Below, piece by piece: positions 5,431 to 41,140 of a stretch of 41,140 nt of DNA. The notes beneath the pieces are model-generated. The model had not been told where the DNA came from and searched no databases. It was given only the letters and a program-made list of their open reading frames with translations. The translations under genes were made by a program, and so were the position numbers. The stretch is from positions 1-41,140 of IMG/VR virus record IMGVR_UViG_3300046474_000206. One strand, written 5' to 3'. Every line of letters starts with the position of its first letter. Positions within the stretch are counted from its first letter, which is position 1. The DNA comes from a virus.

Positions 5431-5697
5431 TTTTCGGCTCCTTTCGCCTGTTTGTCTAAGGCTTCCATTGTATTATAAAGCGCTGTAAGTATCCACTATT
5501 TGTAAGCGTAAAGCGCCGTAAGTTAGTGAAAACTCTAGTTTTTTGCTTAGTTCACGCTTGCATTCAGACGCCCGATGTCGCAATATTCAGTTACACGAGA
5601 AAAGCAGGACGGCGAGGGGAGCACGACCGTACCGGTGAGAAAGCGCATGAGGTGCGCACGACGGGGCCAACCCGCGACTAAAACACAGGAACCGAAG
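5431..5697. promoter_or_regulatory. Divergent cro/cI control region with repeated operators
   Basis: Noncoding. AAGCGCTGTAAGT at 5478 and AAGCGCCGTAAGT at 5511 are direct repeats, with a partial third (GTAAGCGTAAAG) between them. On the minus strand the first overlaps the -10 TATAAT at about 5471-5477 (plus strand ATTATA) of the cro promoter. An inverted repeat AAAACT-CT-AGTTTT lies at 5529-5542. The motif ACAGCGC is shared with the spacer of the promoter at 1702-1730. A possible reading extension of the repressor into 5575-5697 is not favoured. Confidence 0.65.
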
Positions 5698-6165
5698 ATG
5701 ACTGTAGAAACGATCGAGCGCATCCGTCAGAGAAACTTCCTTTGGCTGTTTGACCAATTCAAAGAAGACTTCAGAAAGGATTGGCCGAACGAGCCAGATA
5801 GGGGAATGCTCAGACGATTCGCCGACCGCCTCGGCATGGACCAGATCTACGTGTCTCAGATCAAGAACGGCGGGAAGAAGGAGGAGGGCGGTAACGGTCG
5901 AATCATTGGGCCGCTGCTCGCGCGCCGCATAGAGGGCGCTCTGAACCTTCCGGAAGGCTGGCTCGATACAAACCATCAGGCGCCGGCAGAAGTAGAGGAC
6001 GAGGGCTTGGCAGACGTTCTAAACACCGTCCGCGGTCTCTACGAGCATTCGCCTGAAGCAACGCGCGCTGCGCTGATAAAGGTGATGGGCGCTATCGTCA
6101 CAGGAAATCCGATAGAGTCGATCCTTCTGGAGAAGGAGCGGAACAGGCTTGCAAGAAACGGTTGA
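5698..6165 (+). CDS. CI-like phage repressor, short form without peptidase domain
   Basis: 155 aa from the ATG at 5698 (AGGAACCGAAG upstream). An N-terminal HTH (LRRFADRLGMDQIYVSQIKNG) is followed by ARRIEGALNLPEGWLD, the usual end of the XRE-type domain in phage repressors. The C-terminal part is short (about 70 residues) and has no Ser/Lys S24 peptidase, so RecA-stimulated self-cleavage is unlikely and induction must work otherwise. It faces the Cro-like gene. A relative lies beside the plasmid origin (29217-29558). Confidence 0.78.
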   Translation: MTVETIERIRQRNFLWLFDQFKEDFRKDWPNEPDRGMLRRFADRLGMDQIYVSQIKNGGKKEEGGNGRIIGPLLARRIEGALNLPEGWLDTNHQAPAEVEDEGLADVLNTVRGLYEHSPEATRAALIKVMGAIVTGNPIESILLEKERNRLARNG

Positions 6166-6353
6166 CAGACGGGCAGACAAAAGTATTACAACGCTAACAA
6201 TTTTCGTCCTACCAAAGTAATTTTGACTTCTAATACTGCTGAAATGCAACAAAGCGATACAAAAATTTGTTGCGTACCCATATGATAAGCCTTAATGTTC
6301 AGGGGTCGCTTAGTTGAAAGCGTCTCCCCAACAAAAGAGAAAGGCGGGTAATT
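6166..6353. promoter_or_regulatory. Noncoding region with operator-like sites and an inverted repeat
   Basis: Sites resembling the early-promoter spacer occur at 6181-6198 (AAGTATTACAACGCTAAC) and 6226-6240 (contains TTCTAATACTG, also found in the promoter at 7119-7147). A perfect inverted repeat GCAACAAA/TTTGTTGC spans 6246-6273 with a 12-base loop. TTGCGT and TAATGT 17 bases apart (from 6271) could be the promoter of the next small gene. Confidence 0.45.
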
Positions 6354-6536
6354 ATGACCGGTGCGCAAGCTGTCGCTGCAAATAGTGCCAATGTTTTGCC
6401 GGTGTTCGAGGACGAGTTATCGCCTCACGCCTGGAGTGACCACGAATTCATCAACGCGGCCTGCGCCGCCATCCCCGTTCACATGCGTCGGGAGGCGATT
6501 GCCGCGCTCATGTCGATCGTCGGACGACCGCACTAA
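6354..6536 (+). CDS. 60-aa protein of unknown function downstream of the repressor
   Basis: Start ATG at 6354 with AAAGGCGGG nine bases before it. Acidic N-terminal half, then a helical segment (EFINAACAAIPVHMRREAIAALMSIV). No recognised family. It lies between the repressor and the strong promoter at 6554, so it may be expressed in the lysogen. Moderately confident that it is coding. Confidence 0.55.
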   Translation: MTGAQAVAANSANVLPVFEDELSPHAWSDHEFINAACAAIPVHMRREAIAALMSIVGRPH

Positions 6537-6553
6537 TACGCGCAAAGTTTTGG

Positions 6554-6583
6554 TTGACACAACTTGGACTGTTTTGATATGAT
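6554..6583 (+). promoter_or_regulatory. Very strong sigma-70 promoter, late-promoter candidate
   Basis: A perfect -35 TTGACA, an 18-bp spacer and a -10 TATGAT preceded by TG one base upstream (extended -10). It points towards the late genes but is followed within about 70-140 bp by two intrinsic terminators. The design matches a lambda pR'-type late promoter controlled by antitermination. Confidence 0.75.
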
Positions 6584-6589
6584 TGTGTC

Positions 6590-6684
6590 ACCGTGACGTC
6601 ATTGCGACTTAGGTCGTATTCATCACCGGTTCCTTCTGCTGCAAGGCAGTTTCCGGCTCGCAGAAATGCTTGAGCCGGTTTTTT
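6590..6684 (+). ncRNA. Short terminated leader RNA / sRNA candidate
   Basis: A transcript from the promoter at 6554 would start near 6590 and end at the terminator at 6653-6684, giving about 95 nt with no plausible ORF. It contains small hairpins (CTGC-TGCAAG-GCAG). It could be the equivalent of the lambda 6S late leader or an independent regulatory RNA; the start site is inferred. Confidence 0.55.
6653..6684 (+). terminator. Intrinsic terminator T1
   Basis: Stem CCGGCTC/GAGCCGG with inner GCA/TGC pairing, followed by six T residues. Confidence 0.8.
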
Positions 6685-6692
6685 ACAAAGTA

Positions 6693-6725
6693 AGCCGTCG
6701 CTAGAGAAATCAGCGGCGGCTTTTT
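6693..6725 (+). terminator. Intrinsic terminator T2
   Basis: Stem AGCCGTCGC/GCGGCGGCT with one mismatch (T/G), followed by a T run; directly behind T1, giving a double stop before the late genes. Confidence 0.75.
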
Positions 6726-6782
6726 CGTTTTCGCCTAGCGGCTCCCCACCGCTTGACCAGCCGGGAAAGTAGCGGCACAAAC

Positions 6783-6807
6783 AAAAAAAGCCCGCATCGC
6801 GCGGGCC
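6783..6807 (-). terminator. Intrinsic terminator of the small leftward operon
   Basis: On the minus strand GCCCGC-GCGAT-GCGGGC is followed by seven T residues. It lies just after the stop of the 39-aa acidic gene. Confidence 0.8.
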
Positions 6808-6811
6808 TTAG

Positions 6812-6931
6812 TCACTCATCATCCGGATCTTCCTCCGGTTCTTCGTCATCCTCGCCATCTGTCTCGTTGTAGTAGGCGTCAGCCTCCTGATCGAGCCAGA
6901 AATCGTGGCTGCACTTAAACCGCGCGTTCAC
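6812..6931 (-). CDS. 39-aa acidic protein
   Basis: GTG start at 6931 with GGAGG seven bases upstream, inside the end of the preceding gene. It begins with a Cys/His/Trp segment (FKCSHDFWLDQEADAYY) and ends in a run of Asp/Glu. Strong acidity suggests a DNA mimic or a protein-binding inhibitor, but this is only a guess. Second gene of a two-gene operon with its own promoter and terminator. Confidence 0.6.
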   Translation of the reverse strand: MNARFKCSHDFWLDQEADAYYNETDGEDDEEPEEDPDDE

Positions 6932-7091
6932 TGCGCGCCTCCAGTGCGTCAGAGAGGATTTGCAGCATGGCGCGCGCTTCGCCGATTGCGCATGCGCTCT
7001 CGATGGTGATGTGGCCGGACTGCACCAGATCGCGCAGCTTGCCGATCGTCTCGGCTGCTTGCTTCAGGACGTAATTTTCGTAGTTGCTCAT
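6915..7091 (-). CDS. 58-aa helical protein of unknown function
   Basis: Start ATG at 7091 with GGAGA. Starts MSNYENYVLKQAAETIGKL and continues as amphipathic helices. It is the first gene behind the promoter at 7119-7147. It runs against the flanking late genes and shares the early regulon promoter, so it is probably expressed early or in the lysogen. Confidence 0.65.
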   Translation of the reverse strand: MSNYENYVLKQAAETIGKLRDLVQSGHITIESACAIGEARAMLQILSDALEARSERAV

Positions 7092-7118: not shown

Positions 7119-7147
7119 ATAATACTTCCACAGTATTAGAACATCAA
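7119..7147 (-). promoter_or_regulatory. Leftward promoter of the early-regulon type
   Basis: Minus strand: -35 TTGATG, 17-bp spacer TTCTAATACTGTGGAAG, -10 TATTAT. The spacer keeps the TAATAC core of the regulon. A 10-bp palindrome GTTTGCAAAC lies just upstream at 7153-7162. Confidence 0.7.
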
Positions 7148-7181
7148 GTTTTGTTTGCAAACTGTCGACGCCGTGGATGCT

Positions 7182-7210
7182 TTGCGCGTTCGCTCGCCCA
7201 CATTTAATAC
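7182..7210 (+). promoter_or_regulatory. Possible local promoter of the late operon
   Basis: TTGCGC, 17 bases, TAATAC, 24 bases before the first late gene. A moderate match; late genes could equally be read from 6554 by antitermination. Confidence 0.4.
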
Positions 7211-7234: not shown

Positions 7235-7480
7235 ATGTCTCTCGTCTCGCTTGTCGTTGTCGCGCTTGTGTTGCTGCTGTCTGCGCTTGGCGTGCTGGCT
7301 GTTGCGATGCTCGCAATGGACTTCGCGGAGGACGCTGAAGAAATGGCGCTGTGCCTGGATCAAGAGAGCGCACACGGGGCGCTATTGGGCAGCGTAGAGA
7401 GCGAGAAGCATCGACTGATTGCTGGCGCGATGAAGGCTGATCGCGAGGCGGCACTAAAACGTATCGGGGGCGATGCTTGA
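7235..7480 (+). CDS. 81-aa membrane protein with charged C-terminus
   Basis: TAGGAGCC stands before the ATG. The N-terminus is one long hydrophobic helix (LVSLVVVALVLLLSALGVLA), followed by a Glu/Asp/Lys-rich helical domain. First gene of the rightward late operon; the stop overlaps the methyltransferase start. Function unknown; a coiled or membrane-anchored accessory protein. Confidence 0.65.
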   Translation: MSLVSLVVVALVLLLSALGVLAVAMLAMDFAEDAEEMALCLDQESAHGALLGSVESEKHRLIAGAMKADREAALKRIGGDA

Positions 7481-15543: not shown

Positions 15544-16539
15544 ATGGCAACGACGACGATTACTCAAGTCCCGCCGGGGACCCAGGCGTACTACGACCGC
15601 AACCTTCTGACGCGCGCTGTACCCGCCGACATTCACGGCCGTTTCGGTCAAACCCGCGCGGTTCCGAAGAACGGCGGCAACCAGATCAAGTTCCGTCGCT
15701 ACTCGGCGCTCACGCCAGCAACGACCCCGCTGACCGAAGGCGTTACGCCGTCCGGTTCCAGCCTGGCCGTGACCGACATTACCGCGACGCTCGCGCAGTA
15801 CGGCGATTTCGTCACGCTGTCGGATATGGTCGACATGGTGAACCAAGATCCGGTGCTGACCGAAGCCGGCAAGGTTCTCGGCGAGCAGGGCGGCACGACC
15901 ATCGACCAGATCCGCCGTGACGTGCTGGTGGCTGGTACGAACGTGTTCTACGCGAACGGTACGACCCGCGTCGGCGTGAACACGGCCCTTACCGCCGCGC
16001 AACTGAAGACCGCGATCCGCTTCCTCAAGAAGCAGAACGCGAAGTTCGTGAAAGAGATGGTCAAGGCTGGCACGGGCATCAGCACGCAGCCGATCCGCCC
16101 TGCGTACATCGGCTTGATCCACCCGGATACTGAGGCGGTGCTGGAAGGCATCACCGGCTACACCCCGGTCACGAACTACAGCGCGCAGATGGATGTGATG
16201 GAAAACGAGTGCGGCTCGTTCCAGAACATCCGTTTTGTGGTGTCGACGAATGCCAAGGTGTTCGCTGACGCTGGCGGGGCGAAGGGCACGCTGATCTCGA
16301 CGACCGGAACGAGCGCCGACGTGTACGCGACGCTGATCATCGCGGCCGATGCTTACGGTATCTGCCCGCTGACTGGTGAGGCGATGCGCAACATCATCAA
16401 GCCGCTCGGCTCGGCTGGTTCCGCTGACCCGCTCGACCAGCGCGCAACGTCGGGCTGGAAGGCGATCACCACGACCAAGATCCTCAACGATGCTTGGCTC
16501 GTCCGCCTGGAACACGGCAACACTGACATTCTGAGCTGA
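15544..16539 (+). CDS. Major capsid protein, N4-gp56 family
   Basis: 331 aa. It has the features I associate with the N4-gp56 capsid family: an N-terminal LLTRAVPADIHGRFGQ segment, GGNQIKFRRYSALTP, and a P-domain-like section with YIGLIHPDTEAVL. HK97-type fold expected. AGGAA precedes the start. The gene is followed by a terminator (16562-16583), giving extra control over the most abundant product. Confidence 0.9.
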   Translation: MATTTITQVPPGTQAYYDRNLLTRAVPADIHGRFGQTRAVPKNGGNQIKFRRYSALTPATTPLTEGVTPSGSSLAVTDITATLAQYGDFVTLSDMVDMVNQDPVLTEAGKVLGEQGGTTIDQIRRDVLVAGTNVFYANGTTRVGVNTALTAAQLKTAIRFLKKQNAKFVKEMVKAGTGISTQPIRPAYIGLIHPDTEAVLEGITGYTPVTNYSAQMDVMENECGSFQNIRFVVSTNAKVFADAGGAKGTLISTTGTSADVYATLIIAADAYGICPLTGEAMRNIIKPLGSAGSADPLDQRATSGWKAITTTKILNDAWLVRLEHGNTDILS

Positions 16540-16561
16540 TCGGCTCACGCGTGACATAGAA

Positions 16562-16583
16562 CCCCGCTTCGGCGGGGTTTTTC
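16562..16583 (+). terminator. Intrinsic terminator after the capsid gene
   Basis: ACCCCGC-TTC-GGCGGGGT stem-loop with a UUCG loop and a five-T tail. It probably makes transcription beyond the capsid gene partial. Confidence 0.85.
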
Positions 16584-25570: not shown

Positions 25571-25677
25571 GATCGCGTTCACCGCGCCCACGGATGCCGC
25601 GATACATGCGGCTCTAATGAATTCATCGACCATTTTCTTGCTCGCTCCGGCGGGCTTTCTTTTTTTCAGGGGTGTGT

Positions 25678-27984: not shown

Positions 27985-28006
27985 AAGCCGCCTCCGGGCG
28001 GCTTTT
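27985..28006 (+). terminator. Intrinsic terminator after the tail fibre gene
   Basis: AAGCCGCC-TCCG-GGCGGCTT stem-loop with a T-rich tail, separating structural genes from lysis genes. Confidence 0.85.
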
Positions 28007-29773: not shown

Positions 29774-30394
29774 TTATATCTCTTCTATATCCTTCGGCGC
29801 TGCCGCGATCCGCCTCCGGGTGTCCATCAAACGGCGCACGGCAGGGTGCGCAGAATCCTCATCAACCTCATCAGGCGGCGTCGCAAGTTCAGTTGTTGGA
29901 AGCGCGGCCTTCAGAACGCCTTCGGCGGAATCCCACCTAAAACCGTCTCCAGGAATGATCTCGCAGTTTGTGAGCGCTTCGGCGTCGACGCGCCCGCGTT
30001 CGTTCACTGCCTCGCCGATTGCCTTTAGACGCTCGCCAATCTTCATAGGGATATAGTCGACCACGATTGTGCACAAAACTCGCGTTCCTAGCCGAATGTC
30101 GAGGCGCTCGCGGGCGATGTATAGCGTCCCTGTCTTGCCCTTTCCTTTCGTGATGACGCGAAGCATCCTGTGTTTTTCGAGGATCTTCACACACTCGGAT
30201 ACGGTGCTCTTCCCCATCCCCGTCATTTCGGCAAGTCGGCGGATTCCCGGTTCGGCCTCGCCAGTGTCGAAGTCGGCGTGGCTTTTGATGGCCTGCCAAA
30301 GACCAAAGGCGCTCATCCCGATCTGTGCGGCAATCCCCGATTCGAACAAGTCTCGCTGCATGGTCTGGAATGTCGTATCAATCTTTGTCTTCAT
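29774..30394 (-). CDS. Plasmid replication initiator (Rep), helix-turn-helix type
   Basis: 206 aa from the ATG at 30394, overlapping the preceding stop (TGATG). A winged HTH (IRRLAEMTGMGKSTVSECVKILEKHRML, residues 51-78) is followed by a beta wing with KGKGKTGTLYIARERL. Placed between an iteron array with a DnaA box and a par operon, it is the obvious iteron-binding initiator. It does not look like a classical RepA/Pi two-domain protein, so it may be one of the shorter initiators of phage-plasmids. It ends 10 bp from the last iteron. Confidence 0.75.
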   Translation of the reverse strand: MKTKIDTTFQTMQRDLFESGIAAQIGMSAFGLWQAIKSHADFDTGEAEPGIRRLAEMTGMGKSTVSECVKILEKHRMLRVITKGKGKTGTLYIARERLDIRLGTRVLCTIVVDYIPMKIGERLKAIGEAVNERGRVDAEALTNCEIIPGDGFRWDSAEGVLKAALPTTELATPPDEVDEDSAHPAVRRLMDTRRRIAAAPKDIEEI

Positions 30395-30642
30395 CACTTT
30401 CCGCCCTGCTTCCGCCGCGCCAGCTCGCGTCGCGCCCCCTCGACAAGCAATTCAGACATGGGCGTGTCGGTCAGCTTCATGAACGCGCGCAATTCCTCAT
30501 ACAAACTTTTTGGCATGTTCACCGCCATGCGCTGCGTTGAATCGCGCTCGCGGAACGTCGGCTGCGCTTCGTTATCCAGCTTTGCCGGTTGCTGGCCAAT
30601 AAAGGCGTCGACGGCGCTGCGGTTAAGTGGAGGATTAGCCAT
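30394..30642 (-). CDS. Ribbon-helix-helix partition protein (ParB/ParG-like)
   Basis: 82 aa. A disordered N-terminus is followed by a ribbon-helix-helix (RMAVNMPKSLYEELRAFMKL, then TPMSELLVEGARREL). Directly downstream of and overlapping parA, the place of the small centromere-binding partner in type Ib partition. It probably binds the palindromes at 31353-31386, stimulates ParA ATPase and represses the operon. Confidence 0.75.
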   Translation of the reverse strand: MANPPLNRSAVDAFIGQQPAKLDNEAQPTFRERDSTQRMAVNMPKSLYEELRAFMKLTDTPMSELLVEGARRELARRKQGGK

Positions 30643-31285
30643 TGAGAACCCCTGCCATCAGCGTTTCGAACTCGTCACTCGCCTTCCCGTCCCGGTATTC
30701 GGGCGGCAACTCCATAACCGAAAGCCCTAGTTTCGCGCCCTTCCGGTATGCCGCGCGGTCGACGATCGTCGGACCTAGTTCGAAGTCTCCCATTTCCTTG
30801 ATTACGTCGATCGATTCGTCAAGTTCCGCCTTGATGTAGTGCGGAACAGCGTTCACGAAGGCGATAGCGCGCACTGGCGCCGTTACCGTCGCCCTTCTCT
30901 GCCTGACTATGTGTGCCGTCTGCGCAAGGCTCCAGGCGTCGAACTGGCCTATGCGCAACGGAATCAAGATTATGTCAGCCAGCGCCATCGCGACGCGCGT
31001 TTCCATATCGAGGTTCGGCGGGCAGTCGATGACGATGTGATCGAAGTTCGGCGCGTCAGCGGTGACGGCATGACCGTAATTCTGGTCGACCCGCACGACG
31101 CTCAGGTTCTGCGGTACCTCAGCATCGATGCGCAACTGTCCCCACTGGTACGCGCTGGACTGGTACGGATTGGCGTCATACAGGCGCACAGAGCCGCCCT
31201 GCATGGCGAGCGTGCCGGCGACGTTGGTAGCGGTCATTGTCTTGCCGACGCCACCCTTCTGCATCACAACCGCTATGATGGTCAT
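30635..31285 (-). CDS. parA: ParA-type partition ATPase
   Basis: 216 aa from the ATG at 31285 (GGGGAAGGAAC upstream). Deviant Walker A KGGVGKT at 10-16 and Walker B IVIDCPPN near 95 define the MinD/ParA family; the lack of an N-terminal HTH points to the short ParF (type Ib) form. It forms a cytoskeletal or nucleoid-bound gradient that segregates plasmid copies. First of the parA-RHH-rep operon. Confidence 0.88.
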   Translation of the reverse strand: MTIIAVVMQKGGVGKTMTATNVAGTLAMQGGSVRLYDANPYQSSAYQWGQLRIDAEVPQNLSVVRVDQNYGHAVTADAPNFDHIVIDCPPNLDMETRVAMALADIILIPLRIGQFDAWSLAQTAHIVRQRRATVTAPVRAIAFVNAVPHYIKAELDESIDVIKEMGDFELGPTIVDRAAYRKGAKLGLSVMELPPEYRDGKASDEFETLMAGVLNG

Positions 31286-31311
31286 GTTCCTTCCCCTGTT
31301 ATTGTGCGCAA

Positions 31312-31340
31312 ATCCTAGTACATACTTGCGCAAACATCAA
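31312..31340 (-). promoter_or_regulatory. Promoter of the par/rep operon
   Basis: Minus strand: TTGATG, 17 bases, TAGGAT, about 27 bp before the parA start. The palindrome TTGCGCAA lies inside the spacer, and a related TTGTGCGCAA element lies just downstream, suggesting autorepression. Confidence 0.55.
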
Positions 31341-33591: not shown

Positions 33592-33675
33592 CTATAACCT
33601 CTGTCGGCCGTGTGTGAAGAAGGCGGCCACGTAGACGGACGGGCGTAATAAGGCGAAGCGGGTGTAGTTGTGCAT
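33592..33675 (-). CDS. 27-aa peptide, first gene after the promoter at 33723
   Basis: Starts MHNYTRFALLRPSVYVAAFF; AGAAGGAA stands six bases upstream. The leader between promoter and start (ACACAACA...AGAAGGAA) resembles the leader of the 129-aa gene at 1657. Probably a small membrane-associated peptide or translational leader. Confidence 0.45.
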   Translation of the reverse strand: MHNYTRFALLRPSVYVAAFFTHGRQRL

Positions 33676-33722
33676 GCTGGTTCCTTCTGTTGTGTGGTTA
33701 TTGTTGTCCTGCATTGGTACGG

Positions 33723-33751
33723 ATAATACTTGCGCGGTATCAGTACGTCAA
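33723..33751 (-). promoter_or_regulatory. Leftward promoter of the early-regulon type
   Basis: Minus strand: TTGACG, 17-bp spacer TACTGATACCGCGCAAG, TATTAT. Best -35/-10 match of the set. It would drive the genes from 33675 down to 31387. Confidence 0.75.
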
Positions 33752-40051: not shown

Positions 40052-40140
40052 TGGAAAGCCCCTAGGTTCTGCGCTGCCGCCCACGCCCCGTATCCGAAGC
40101 AGACGAGTAGCGCGATCGTCCACTCAAGCGCGGCCCGCAT
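40048..40140 (-). CDS. Tiny membrane peptide MRAAL family (copy 2)
   Basis: 30 aa, starting MRAALEWTIALLVCFGYGAW; a hydrophobic helix then a polar end. It begins within the 129-aa gene and overlaps the next start. It corresponds to 1204-1284. Confidence 0.5.
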   Translation of the reverse strand: MRAALEWTIALLVCFGYGAWAAAQNLGAFQ

Positions 40141-40513
40141 GGCTTATCTCGTCGATTTCATCGCGCAGGACGCGCGCACGGTTCACAAGGAGGGAGAGCC
40201 AGCCATCGGCGGCGGCTTCAGGAAACATCGATGAAAAGCGACGCCATTCCAAATCGAAATTCATCAGAAGGGCGTACATGTCCGGCACCTTCTCCGCGAT
40301 CTGCACCTGACGATGGAGTTCGATCAGTTCGGCGACAGGGCAAAGGTGCTCGTCGCCGGCCTTGCGCAGTTCCTGCATGAATACTGACTTAGGCACTGAA
40401 GCAGCCAGTGTATCCATTGCGGACAAATTTTTACGCGCAACAGGAGCTTGTTGCGGGCGGAAGGCTTCGATACTGCGTAATAAGCCGTTGCGGGCCAAGG
40501 TTTGCGGTTTCAT
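40124..40513 (-). CDS. Conserved 129-aa phage protein of unknown function (copy 2)
   Basis: Same protein, residue for residue, as at 1268-1657, encoded by DNA with several synonymous differences. Heads the cassette with Sak4 and SSB. Start at 40513 with AAGGAAAC. See copy 1 for description. Confidence 0.8.
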   Translation of the reverse strand: MKPQTLARNGLLRSIEAFRPQQAPVARKNLSAMDTLAASVPKSVFMQELRKAGDEHLCPVAELIELHRQVQIAEKVPDMYALLMNFDLEWRRFSSMFPEAAADGWLSLLVNRARVLRDEIDEISHAGRA

Positions 40514-40557
40514 CGATGTTTCCTTCTGGATTGTTGTTGTGTGTGCTGCTGGTATGA

Positions 40558-40586
40558 ATAGTACTTGGCGTGTATTAATAAAGCAA
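40558..40586 (-). promoter_or_regulatory. Leftward promoter of the early-regulon type
   Basis: Minus strand: TTGCTT, 17-bp spacer TATTAATACACGCCAAG, TACTAT. Homologous to the promoter at 1702-1730 with several changed bases. Confidence 0.7.
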
Positions 40587-40627
40587 GCGTTTTTTCACGC
40601 CGATGTGTGCGATTGGCTACGCTTCCA

Positions 40628-40831
40628 TCAGTTGGCGCCGACAAAGACTCGGATGATCCTGCGGTGCAGTGGCTTACGTGGCGTCCACAACTTCATTTCG
40701 CCGCCTTGCACACACTTGCCGCCGTACGTAGCCTCTGTCTTGCAGAAGTATCCGGTTACCTGGCACTGCCAGAACGTTCTTGCTAGCCCGTAGCGATGCG
40801 CACAGGTAGCGCAGTTGCGTTCATCTTTCAT
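40628..40831 (-). CDS. 67-aa Cys-rich protein
   Basis: Starts MKDERNCATCAHRYGLAR; CATC plus WQCQVTGYFC and GKC give a compact Cys cluster, likely zinc-binding. The ATG overlaps the regulator stop (ATGA). It is missing from the corresponding place of the left copy, where the regulator is followed directly by the promoter. A different Cys-rich gene (2201-2437) lies upstream of that regulator instead. Confidence 0.65.
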   Translation of the reverse strand: MKDERNCATCAHRYGLARTFWQCQVTGYFCKTEATYGGKCVQGGEMKLWTPRKPLHRRIIRVFVGAN

Positions 40832-41140
40832 GCTTCCTCCTGTCGATTGATCCATCCCCGGCGCTCGAACGCCGGTCGTAACTTCTCGTGCGTCGCCTGG
40901 CGCAGCTCTGCGATTGCAGGCCCGATCTTCGCTGCCGCGTTGTATGCGGTGCTTCGGCTTACTCCGCACGCATCGGCGATGTGCTGCGCGGAAGGGCAGT
41001 AGTGCGCGCCATACACGAACTCGCGCATCAGCATCAGGCGGATGACAGCCCGATTGCGCACGATGCCGGCGAACAGGTGTTCGAGCCGACCGATCGCCGC
41101 GTGTCGCTCGCCGTTCTCGCCGCCGTATTCCGCGTCCAGG
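40828..41140 (-). CDS. Helix-turn-helix regulator, second copy, partial at window end
   Basis: The last 103 residues are present; the 5' end is outside the window. Nearly identical to residues ~99-197 of the regulator at 1761-2366, with one changed residue in the HTH (ADACG for ADECG) and a different end (INRQEEA for LAREEM). Confidence 0.75.
   Translation of the reverse strand, partial: LDAEYGGENGERHAAIGRLEHLFAGIVRNRAVIRLMLMREFVYGAHYCPSAQHIADACGVSRSTAYNAAAKIGPAIAELRQATHEKLRPAFERRGWINRQEEA
40860..41140. repeat. Long direct repeat B, right copy (runs off window)
   Basis: Pairs with 1790-2070; the window ends inside the repeat, so its full length is unknown. Confidence 0.9.

Follow-up and report, generated by a model that had tools for sequence, protein, structure and literature searches.

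A putative phage late-promoter switch whose terminated leader RNA is predicted to pair with the ribosome-binding site of an early gene

The late control region of phage lambda consists of the strong promoter pR', a short leader (6S) and the terminator tR', with the Q protein encoded in the early operon and the late genes lying downstream. Small antisense RNAs of phages, such as sar of P22 and c4 of P1, pair where translation of a phage gene begins. The Q-type antiterminator of lambda has been described (PMC9371919), and AlpA of Pseudomonas aeruginosa binds an element between the -35 and -10 elements of the alpB promoter and lets polymerase pass the terminators downstream (PMC7969949, PMC9371919). 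The AlpA element is GGGACGN5GGTA (PMC7969949), and AlpA also requires a -10-like hexamer spanning -1 to +5, of which the bases A(+1) and T(+5) are important (PMC9371919). The anti-terminator of the Caulobacter gene transfer agent, GafZ, has been reported to be without structural similarity to AlpA and Q (PMC11150451).

The locus described here lies in a virus record of 41,140 bases, the whole of which is referred to as the window. Its promoter, leader and first terminator are found again in over 40 related IMG/VR records, which were gathered by a protein scan with the adjoining repressor-like gene (about 5697-6165) and then by later scans. Comparison of the region with named phages gave no relative, and record L034, whose large terminase is 85% identical, has neither the AlpA-like gene nor such a promoter in the stretch scanned. 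The reading considered fairly probable from the sequences and the structure model is that one promoter would do two jobs, its terminated RNA silencing an early gene and its antitermination giving the late transcript. The features of the promoter and leader are as follows.

Positions 6554-6583, + strand: promoter with a -35 element TTGACA (6554-6559), an 18-nt spacer and an extended -10 element TGA-TATGAT (TATGAT at 6578-6583)
Positions 6563-6571, + strand: candidate antiterminator-binding element CTTGGACTG in the spacer (exploratory)
Positions 6589-6594, + strand: -10-like pause hexamer CACCGT, at -1 to +5 of the predicted start A6590
Positions 6590-6684, + strand: predicted leader RNA or small RNA of 95 nt, with stem P1, an exposed linker, hairpin P2 and terminator T1
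Positions 6628-6638, + strand: pairing region GGTTCCTTCTG, the exposed linker with neighbouring P1 and P2 bases
Positions 6653-6684, + strand: intrinsic terminator T1, read directly, a bulged hairpin CCGGCTC-GCA-GAAA-TGC-TT-GAGCCGG-T6
Positions 6694-6725, + strand: intrinsic terminator T2 (GCCGTCGCT, 9 nt, AGCGGCGGC, T5), giving a 136-nt transcript and absent in some relatives
Positions 6730-6776, + strand: two short conserved hairpins (loops CTCCCCA and around GGAAAG), at the place where tRNA-like or other structured RNAs are inserted in relatives

The promoter core (TTGACA-18-TGATATGAT) has 11 of 12 consensus matches, with a TG ahead of TATGAT. Four promoter-like sites were counted in the first 12 kb against 4.7 expected, which is not above chance, and what sets the promoter apart is not the site count but how well it scores and how widely it is conserved, in more than 40 records. 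The start was set by rule as an A at 7 to 8 nt past the -10 element, which in the window is A6590, 7 bases past it, and the predicted transcript from there is 95 nt long to T1, with no open reading frame, and 136 nt long to T2. The computed fold of the T1 hairpin agrees with the drawn structure, and among 16 variants compensatory changes were found at three pairs, with 99.3% of cells paired and a covariation score that was reached in 0 of 500 shuffles, a control in which sequence relatedness stays. T2 is optional in relatives and is missing in L026 and L027. A simple terminator scan listed neither terminator, which is explained by the 2-nt bulge of T1 and the 9-nt loop of T2. The 24 distinct variants of the leader share stem P1 (closed by the 5'-terminal bases of the transcript), the exposed linker (UUCCUUCC and variants), P2 and the bulged T1. 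The sequence-only reading had claimed TTGACA with an extended -10 TATGAT, a leader of about 95 nt without an open reading frame and two intrinsic terminators, all of which were found again here; its term 6S-type for the switch, taken in the sense of SsrS, was not borne out by any Rfam covariance model, the leader having no match at the gathering score and weak, chance-level matches at a permissive threshold.

T1 and T2 might instead be the ordinary terminators of the upstream gene for 60 amino acids (6354-6536), preceded by a promoter-like sequence that arose by chance. No terminator lies between that gene and the T1/T2 region, and the site count given above would agree with a chance promoter, but promoter and start, linker, hairpins and T1 have all been retained among widely diverged sequences, and compensatory changes occur; this explanation is given hardly any credence. 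The 60-residue gene is itself conserved and is preceded within 6242-6536 by a conserved promoter region, in which the repeat GCAACAAA/TTTGTTGC is inverted and which also has a hairpin at the 5' side.

The protein that may act on this promoter is encoded on the opposite strand.

Positions 1761-2366, - strand: protein of AlpA/Q fold, candidate antiterminator, encoded late in the early operon

Its structure model has a mean pLDDT of 76, the N-terminal 26 residues being poor, and in a Foldseek search AlpA of P. aeruginosa was the sole match below an E value of 0.01. Alignment of the model to AlpA (7xya) with VIA-align gave a Z score of 15.8 over 143 residues at an rmsd of 2.9, and the Z scores were 15.8 and 15.0 for two AlpA complexes, 7.2 for Q21, 6.1 for Q-lambda and at most 5.8 for unrelated proteins. 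When the PDB was searched by sequence neither AlpA nor Q was matched, and nothing above cut-off was found in Pfam, NCBIfam, PHROGs and PADLOC where these were scanned. Named phages and plasmids yielded no relatives of the protein, and 84,980 bacterial and archaeal genomes yielded none by protein patterns or by the leader pattern. The model supports the product of 1761-2366 as a candidate AlpA/Q-like antiterminator of the promoter at 6554.

The promoter was compared with the AlpA model at its start and in its spacer. The pair A(+1)/T(+5) was found in 14 of 14 tabulated promoters linked to an AlpA-like gene, held-out clades included, some of these promoters being closely related and 6 of the 14 coming from records gathered after the rule had been noted. 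The hexamers in records with an AlpA-like gene were CACCGT, TACCGT, CACCCT, TATCGT, TAACAT, CACCAT and TACCAT, and those in the later-gathered records were TAACAT, TAGCAT, TAACGT, CACAGT and TACCGT, all with the pair. No AlpA-like gene was found when L021, L026, L027 and L033 (records that may be incomplete) were searched over their whole length, and the two promoter types of these records, TGCGCT and CACCAA, are without the pair; gene presence was judged with fragments such as L028 and L136 set aside, and the independent lineages are fewer than the records. The spacer is conserved within clades, and the candidate element CTTGGACTG keeps a constant distance from the -35 element in relatives. 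A first test of the spacer against the whole helix-turn-helix, aligned on the -10 element, showed no correlation (r = -0.06), and a comparison with the recognition helix, anchored on the -35 element, gave r = 0.62 (p = 3e-4), an exploratory value chosen after the first test had failed.

An AlpA/Q module is recognised by an antiterminator of AlpA/Q fold, a pause hexamer with A(+1) and T(+5) and intrinsic terminators between the promoter and the first gene, and these are present here in the 1761-2366 model, in the hexamer at the rule-placed start and in T1 and T2. The locus resembles that of AlpA and the alpB promoter (PMC7969949, PMC9371919) in the predicted fold of the candidate antiterminator, the -10-like hexamer at -1 to +5 and the terminators ahead of the first gene, and would do so in its candidate element between -35 and -10. 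It differs from the Pseudomonas locus in belonging to phages and standing ahead of virion genes, in having no sequence similarity that could be found, in its spacer element, and in a terminated leader that is a conserved RNA with a covarying target. With GafZ (PMC11150451) it would share an element between -35 and -10 and the antitermination of virion genes, both proposed here, whereas the 1761-2366 model, unlike GafZ, has structural similarity to AlpA and Q.

The second half of the proposal concerns the RNA itself, for which the sites below are the candidate targets.

Positions 1268-1657, - strand: target gene of 129 amino acids, behind an operator-like site (1703-1721)
Positions 1664-1672, - strand: target site CAGAAGGAA, which is the ribosome-binding site of gene 1268-1657 and complements the leader RNA
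Positions 40520-40528, - strand: identical target site, preceding the second copy of the gene (40124-40513)
Positions 33679-33689, - strand: second target CAGAAGGAACC, complementary over 11 nt, before a short open reading frame at 33675

Directly downstream of the AlpA-like gene lies the early gene 1268-1657, whose Shine-Dalgarno sequence the linker UUCCUUCUG complements, and the second target also sits behind an operator-like site (33724-33742). Nothing above cut-off was found for the target protein in Pfam, NCBIfam, PHROGs and PADLOC where scanned, and its model was too poor for a structure search. In the window group the linker TTCCTTCTG faces the target CAGAAGGAA, and in another variant TTCCTTCCG faces CGGAAGGAA. 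An extra T in the linker of L028 is matched by an extra A in its target (CGGAAAGGAACCGA), giving 14 contiguous bases, and in the L172 clade, which was gathered later, the linker (G)TTCCGTTCGT faces the target ACGAACGGAA(C). Further co-changes are TTCTG with CAGAA and, in L122, TCCTCTG with CAGAGGA. Over 11 types the contiguous complementary bases of a linker and its own target summed to 109, against 85 on permutation (p = 2.5e-5, for a set that includes the held-out clades and in which shared ancestry inflates p values); duplex energies of the 11 types agree with this result, and in earlier swap tests on only 7 to 9 pairs p lay between 0.004 and 0.011. The co-change is hard to explain otherwise, because an insertion matches an insertion and a rewritten linker matches a rewritten target. 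Records that lack the AlpA-like gene still have the RNA with its complementarity, so that the RNA is seemingly kept for its own sake.

The leader has what is expected of a small RNA, namely its own promoter, an intrinsic terminator and a conserved, accessible seed that is complementary to, and covaries with, the ribosome-binding site of a target. Pairing of the leader RNA with the early-gene ribosome-binding site is supported by these sequence comparisons. The sequence-only reading had left two alternatives, a late switch needing an antiterminator and a dedicated small RNA, and had put forward the helix-turn-helix protein at 1761 as antiterminator, a link that it called speculative; the first alternative and the protein both gain from the AlpA/Q-like fold, the first also from the AlpA-type pause element, and the second alternative gains from the covariation, in each case on grounds of sequence or predicted fold. 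The leader is like P22 sar and P1 c4 in that a small RNA is predicted to pair at a phage gene's site of translation initiation, and unlike them in being encoded about 5 kb from its target, without overlap. An apparent target in trans also sets it apart from the lambda 6S leader.

The locus could be a late switch and nothing else, that is, a pR'-type antitermination site whose terminated RNA is a by-product and whose likeness to ribosome-binding sites is general. The protein fold and the promoter anatomy would suit this well, the linker does resemble a general anti-Shine-Dalgarno sequence (UUCCUUC), and AGGAACCG-type sites precede many genes; it is nevertheless held to be unlikely, in view of the co-change of the linker with one particular target gene across clades at the p value given above, the matched insertion of L028, the rewriting of both linker and target in the L172 clade, and the retention of the RNA where the AlpA-like gene is absent. 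Ribosome-binding sites of the AGGAACCG type, before the repressor and other genes, were at first accepted as targets and are now treated as incidental, because the CGG half sits in P1 and no co-change was seen in the L172 clade.

Between the leader and the end of the late region the following features were placed.

Positions 6787-6809, - strand: terminator of the convergent small gene
Positions 6915-7091, - strand: convergent small early gene behind a repressor-type operator (7120-7138)
Positions 7235-7480, + strand: first late gene, from which the late region runs on to about 29.2 kb
Positions 16558-16581, + strand: intrinsic terminator inside the late region, directly after gene 15544-16539 (read as the major capsid gene)
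Positions 25640-25655, + strand: intrinsic terminator inside the late region, between genes
Positions 27985-28004, + strand: intrinsic terminator inside the late region, between genes

The promoter and its two terminators do stand ahead of the late genes, as had been read from the sequence, but they do not feed into them directly, the convergent gene 7091-6915 with its terminator and operator intervening, which is awkward for a late promoter. The arrangement is like that of lambda pR' in its strong promoter, short leader, terminator, Q-like protein of the early operon and late genes downstream, and unlike it in this convergent gene and in an early operon that runs the other way. No other promoter-like site on the + strand with at least 9 of 12 matches was found between 6584 and 29300, and the three terminators listed for that stretch are all intergenic. 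In L231 and L232 the regulatory cassette stands ahead of terminase, portal, head and tail genes of families unlike those of the window, on the strand read by the promoter, and a portable late switch fits because unrelated virion modules follow one cassette. Just upstream of the first late gene lies a 21-nt motif, GATGCTTTGCGCGTTCGCTCG (7176-7196), which is nearly invariant between clades, occurs once per genome and could be part of a separate late promoter of another kind.

That motif and the intervening convergent gene would suit a different division of labour, in which the RNA is a dedicated antisense RNA, late transcription begins from a promoter near 7.2 kb and the AlpA-like protein has its site of action elsewhere; the persistence of the RNA and its complementarity without the AlpA-like gene points the same way. 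Against this, A(+1)/T(+5) is kept with the AlpA-like gene and not where the gene is absent, there is no consensus-like promoter on the + strand at 7.2 kb, and terminators lie inside the late region, so that this explanation too is judged improbable.

Behind T2, variable inserts of about 100-400 nt are found in L003, L006, L011, L012, L014, L021, L136 and L161; they are structured RNAs in which the basal stem (CUCUCACG/CGUGAGAG) is conserved and the arms vary, their counterpart in the window lies at 6757-6785, and no Rfam family matched them. Sequences resembling tRNA-Tyr or tRNA-Asn occupy the same place in L014 (7340-7428), L032 (880-963), L002 and L131, and among the tRNA-like inserts of relatives ARAGORN called only two and Rfam none. 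Several relatives carry such inserts, tRNA-like or otherwise structured, on the same strand, which raises the idea that the promoter serves these RNA genes, with the terminators as attenuators. This idea is regarded as very improbable, as the window and several relatives are free of inserts yet keep the promoter, leader and T1, and the inserts match no Rfam family and are mostly not called as tRNA.

Under the reading that one promoter does two jobs, RNA polymerase lacking the phage antiterminator would start at A6590 and stop at T1 or T2, giving an RNA of 95 or 136 nt. The linker of this RNA would pair with the ribosome-binding site that serves the early gene at 1657, a pairing that the covariation favours, and probably also at its relatives at 40513 and 33675, and the pairing would block translation of the target. 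Once the early operon is on, the AlpA-like protein would, to judge from its fold and the promoter anatomy, bind the spacer element and catch polymerase paused at the -10-like hexamer; the polymerase would then pass T1, T2 and the terminators of the late region and transcribe the late genes, presumably crossing the convergent small gene in antisense. In a group of related phages, there seems slightly better than an even chance that a late promoter of the Q/AlpA type yields, when its transcript is terminated, an antisense RNA acting in trans, that this RNA silences the early gene beside the antiterminator gene, and that the antiterminator thereby decides between silencing RNA and late mRNA. A narrow literature search found no description of such a promoter switch combined with an antisense RNA. 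If the proposal is true, antiterminators of the AlpA type, which are known in P. aeruginosa from a cell-death locus, would be late regulators of phages with unrelated virions, the short RNA made when the antiterminator is absent would have a function and a testable target, and the gene 1268-1657 would be a candidate for a product that must stay off.

An operator-like site with two mismatches (6534-6552) adjoins the -35 element; it may make the promoter repressor-responsive, and it may bear on whether the promoter works in lysogens, an activity that we infer. Operator-like sites of the form TAATAC-N7-GTATTA number 12 with at most 3 mismatches against 2.6 expected and lie mostly before early genes; they include those at window positions 1703, 5457, 7120, 33724 and 40559. 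Members of the target gene family in L172, L182, L191, L193 and L203 share a conserved N-terminus of about 30 residues and differ widely in their C-termini, some of which probably contain a transmembrane segment, and from these sequences the family may be read as a regulated leader with exchangeable cargo. The end of the window repeats part of its start (1264-2070 against 40120-41140, 96% identity), the repeat spanning the antiterminator C-terminus, the operator and the target gene, and represents either a real duplication or a two-strain assembly. By sequence, a ParA-like ATPase and a small partner gene are encoded at 30394-31333, and because of this pair a plasmid-like prophage is suggested.
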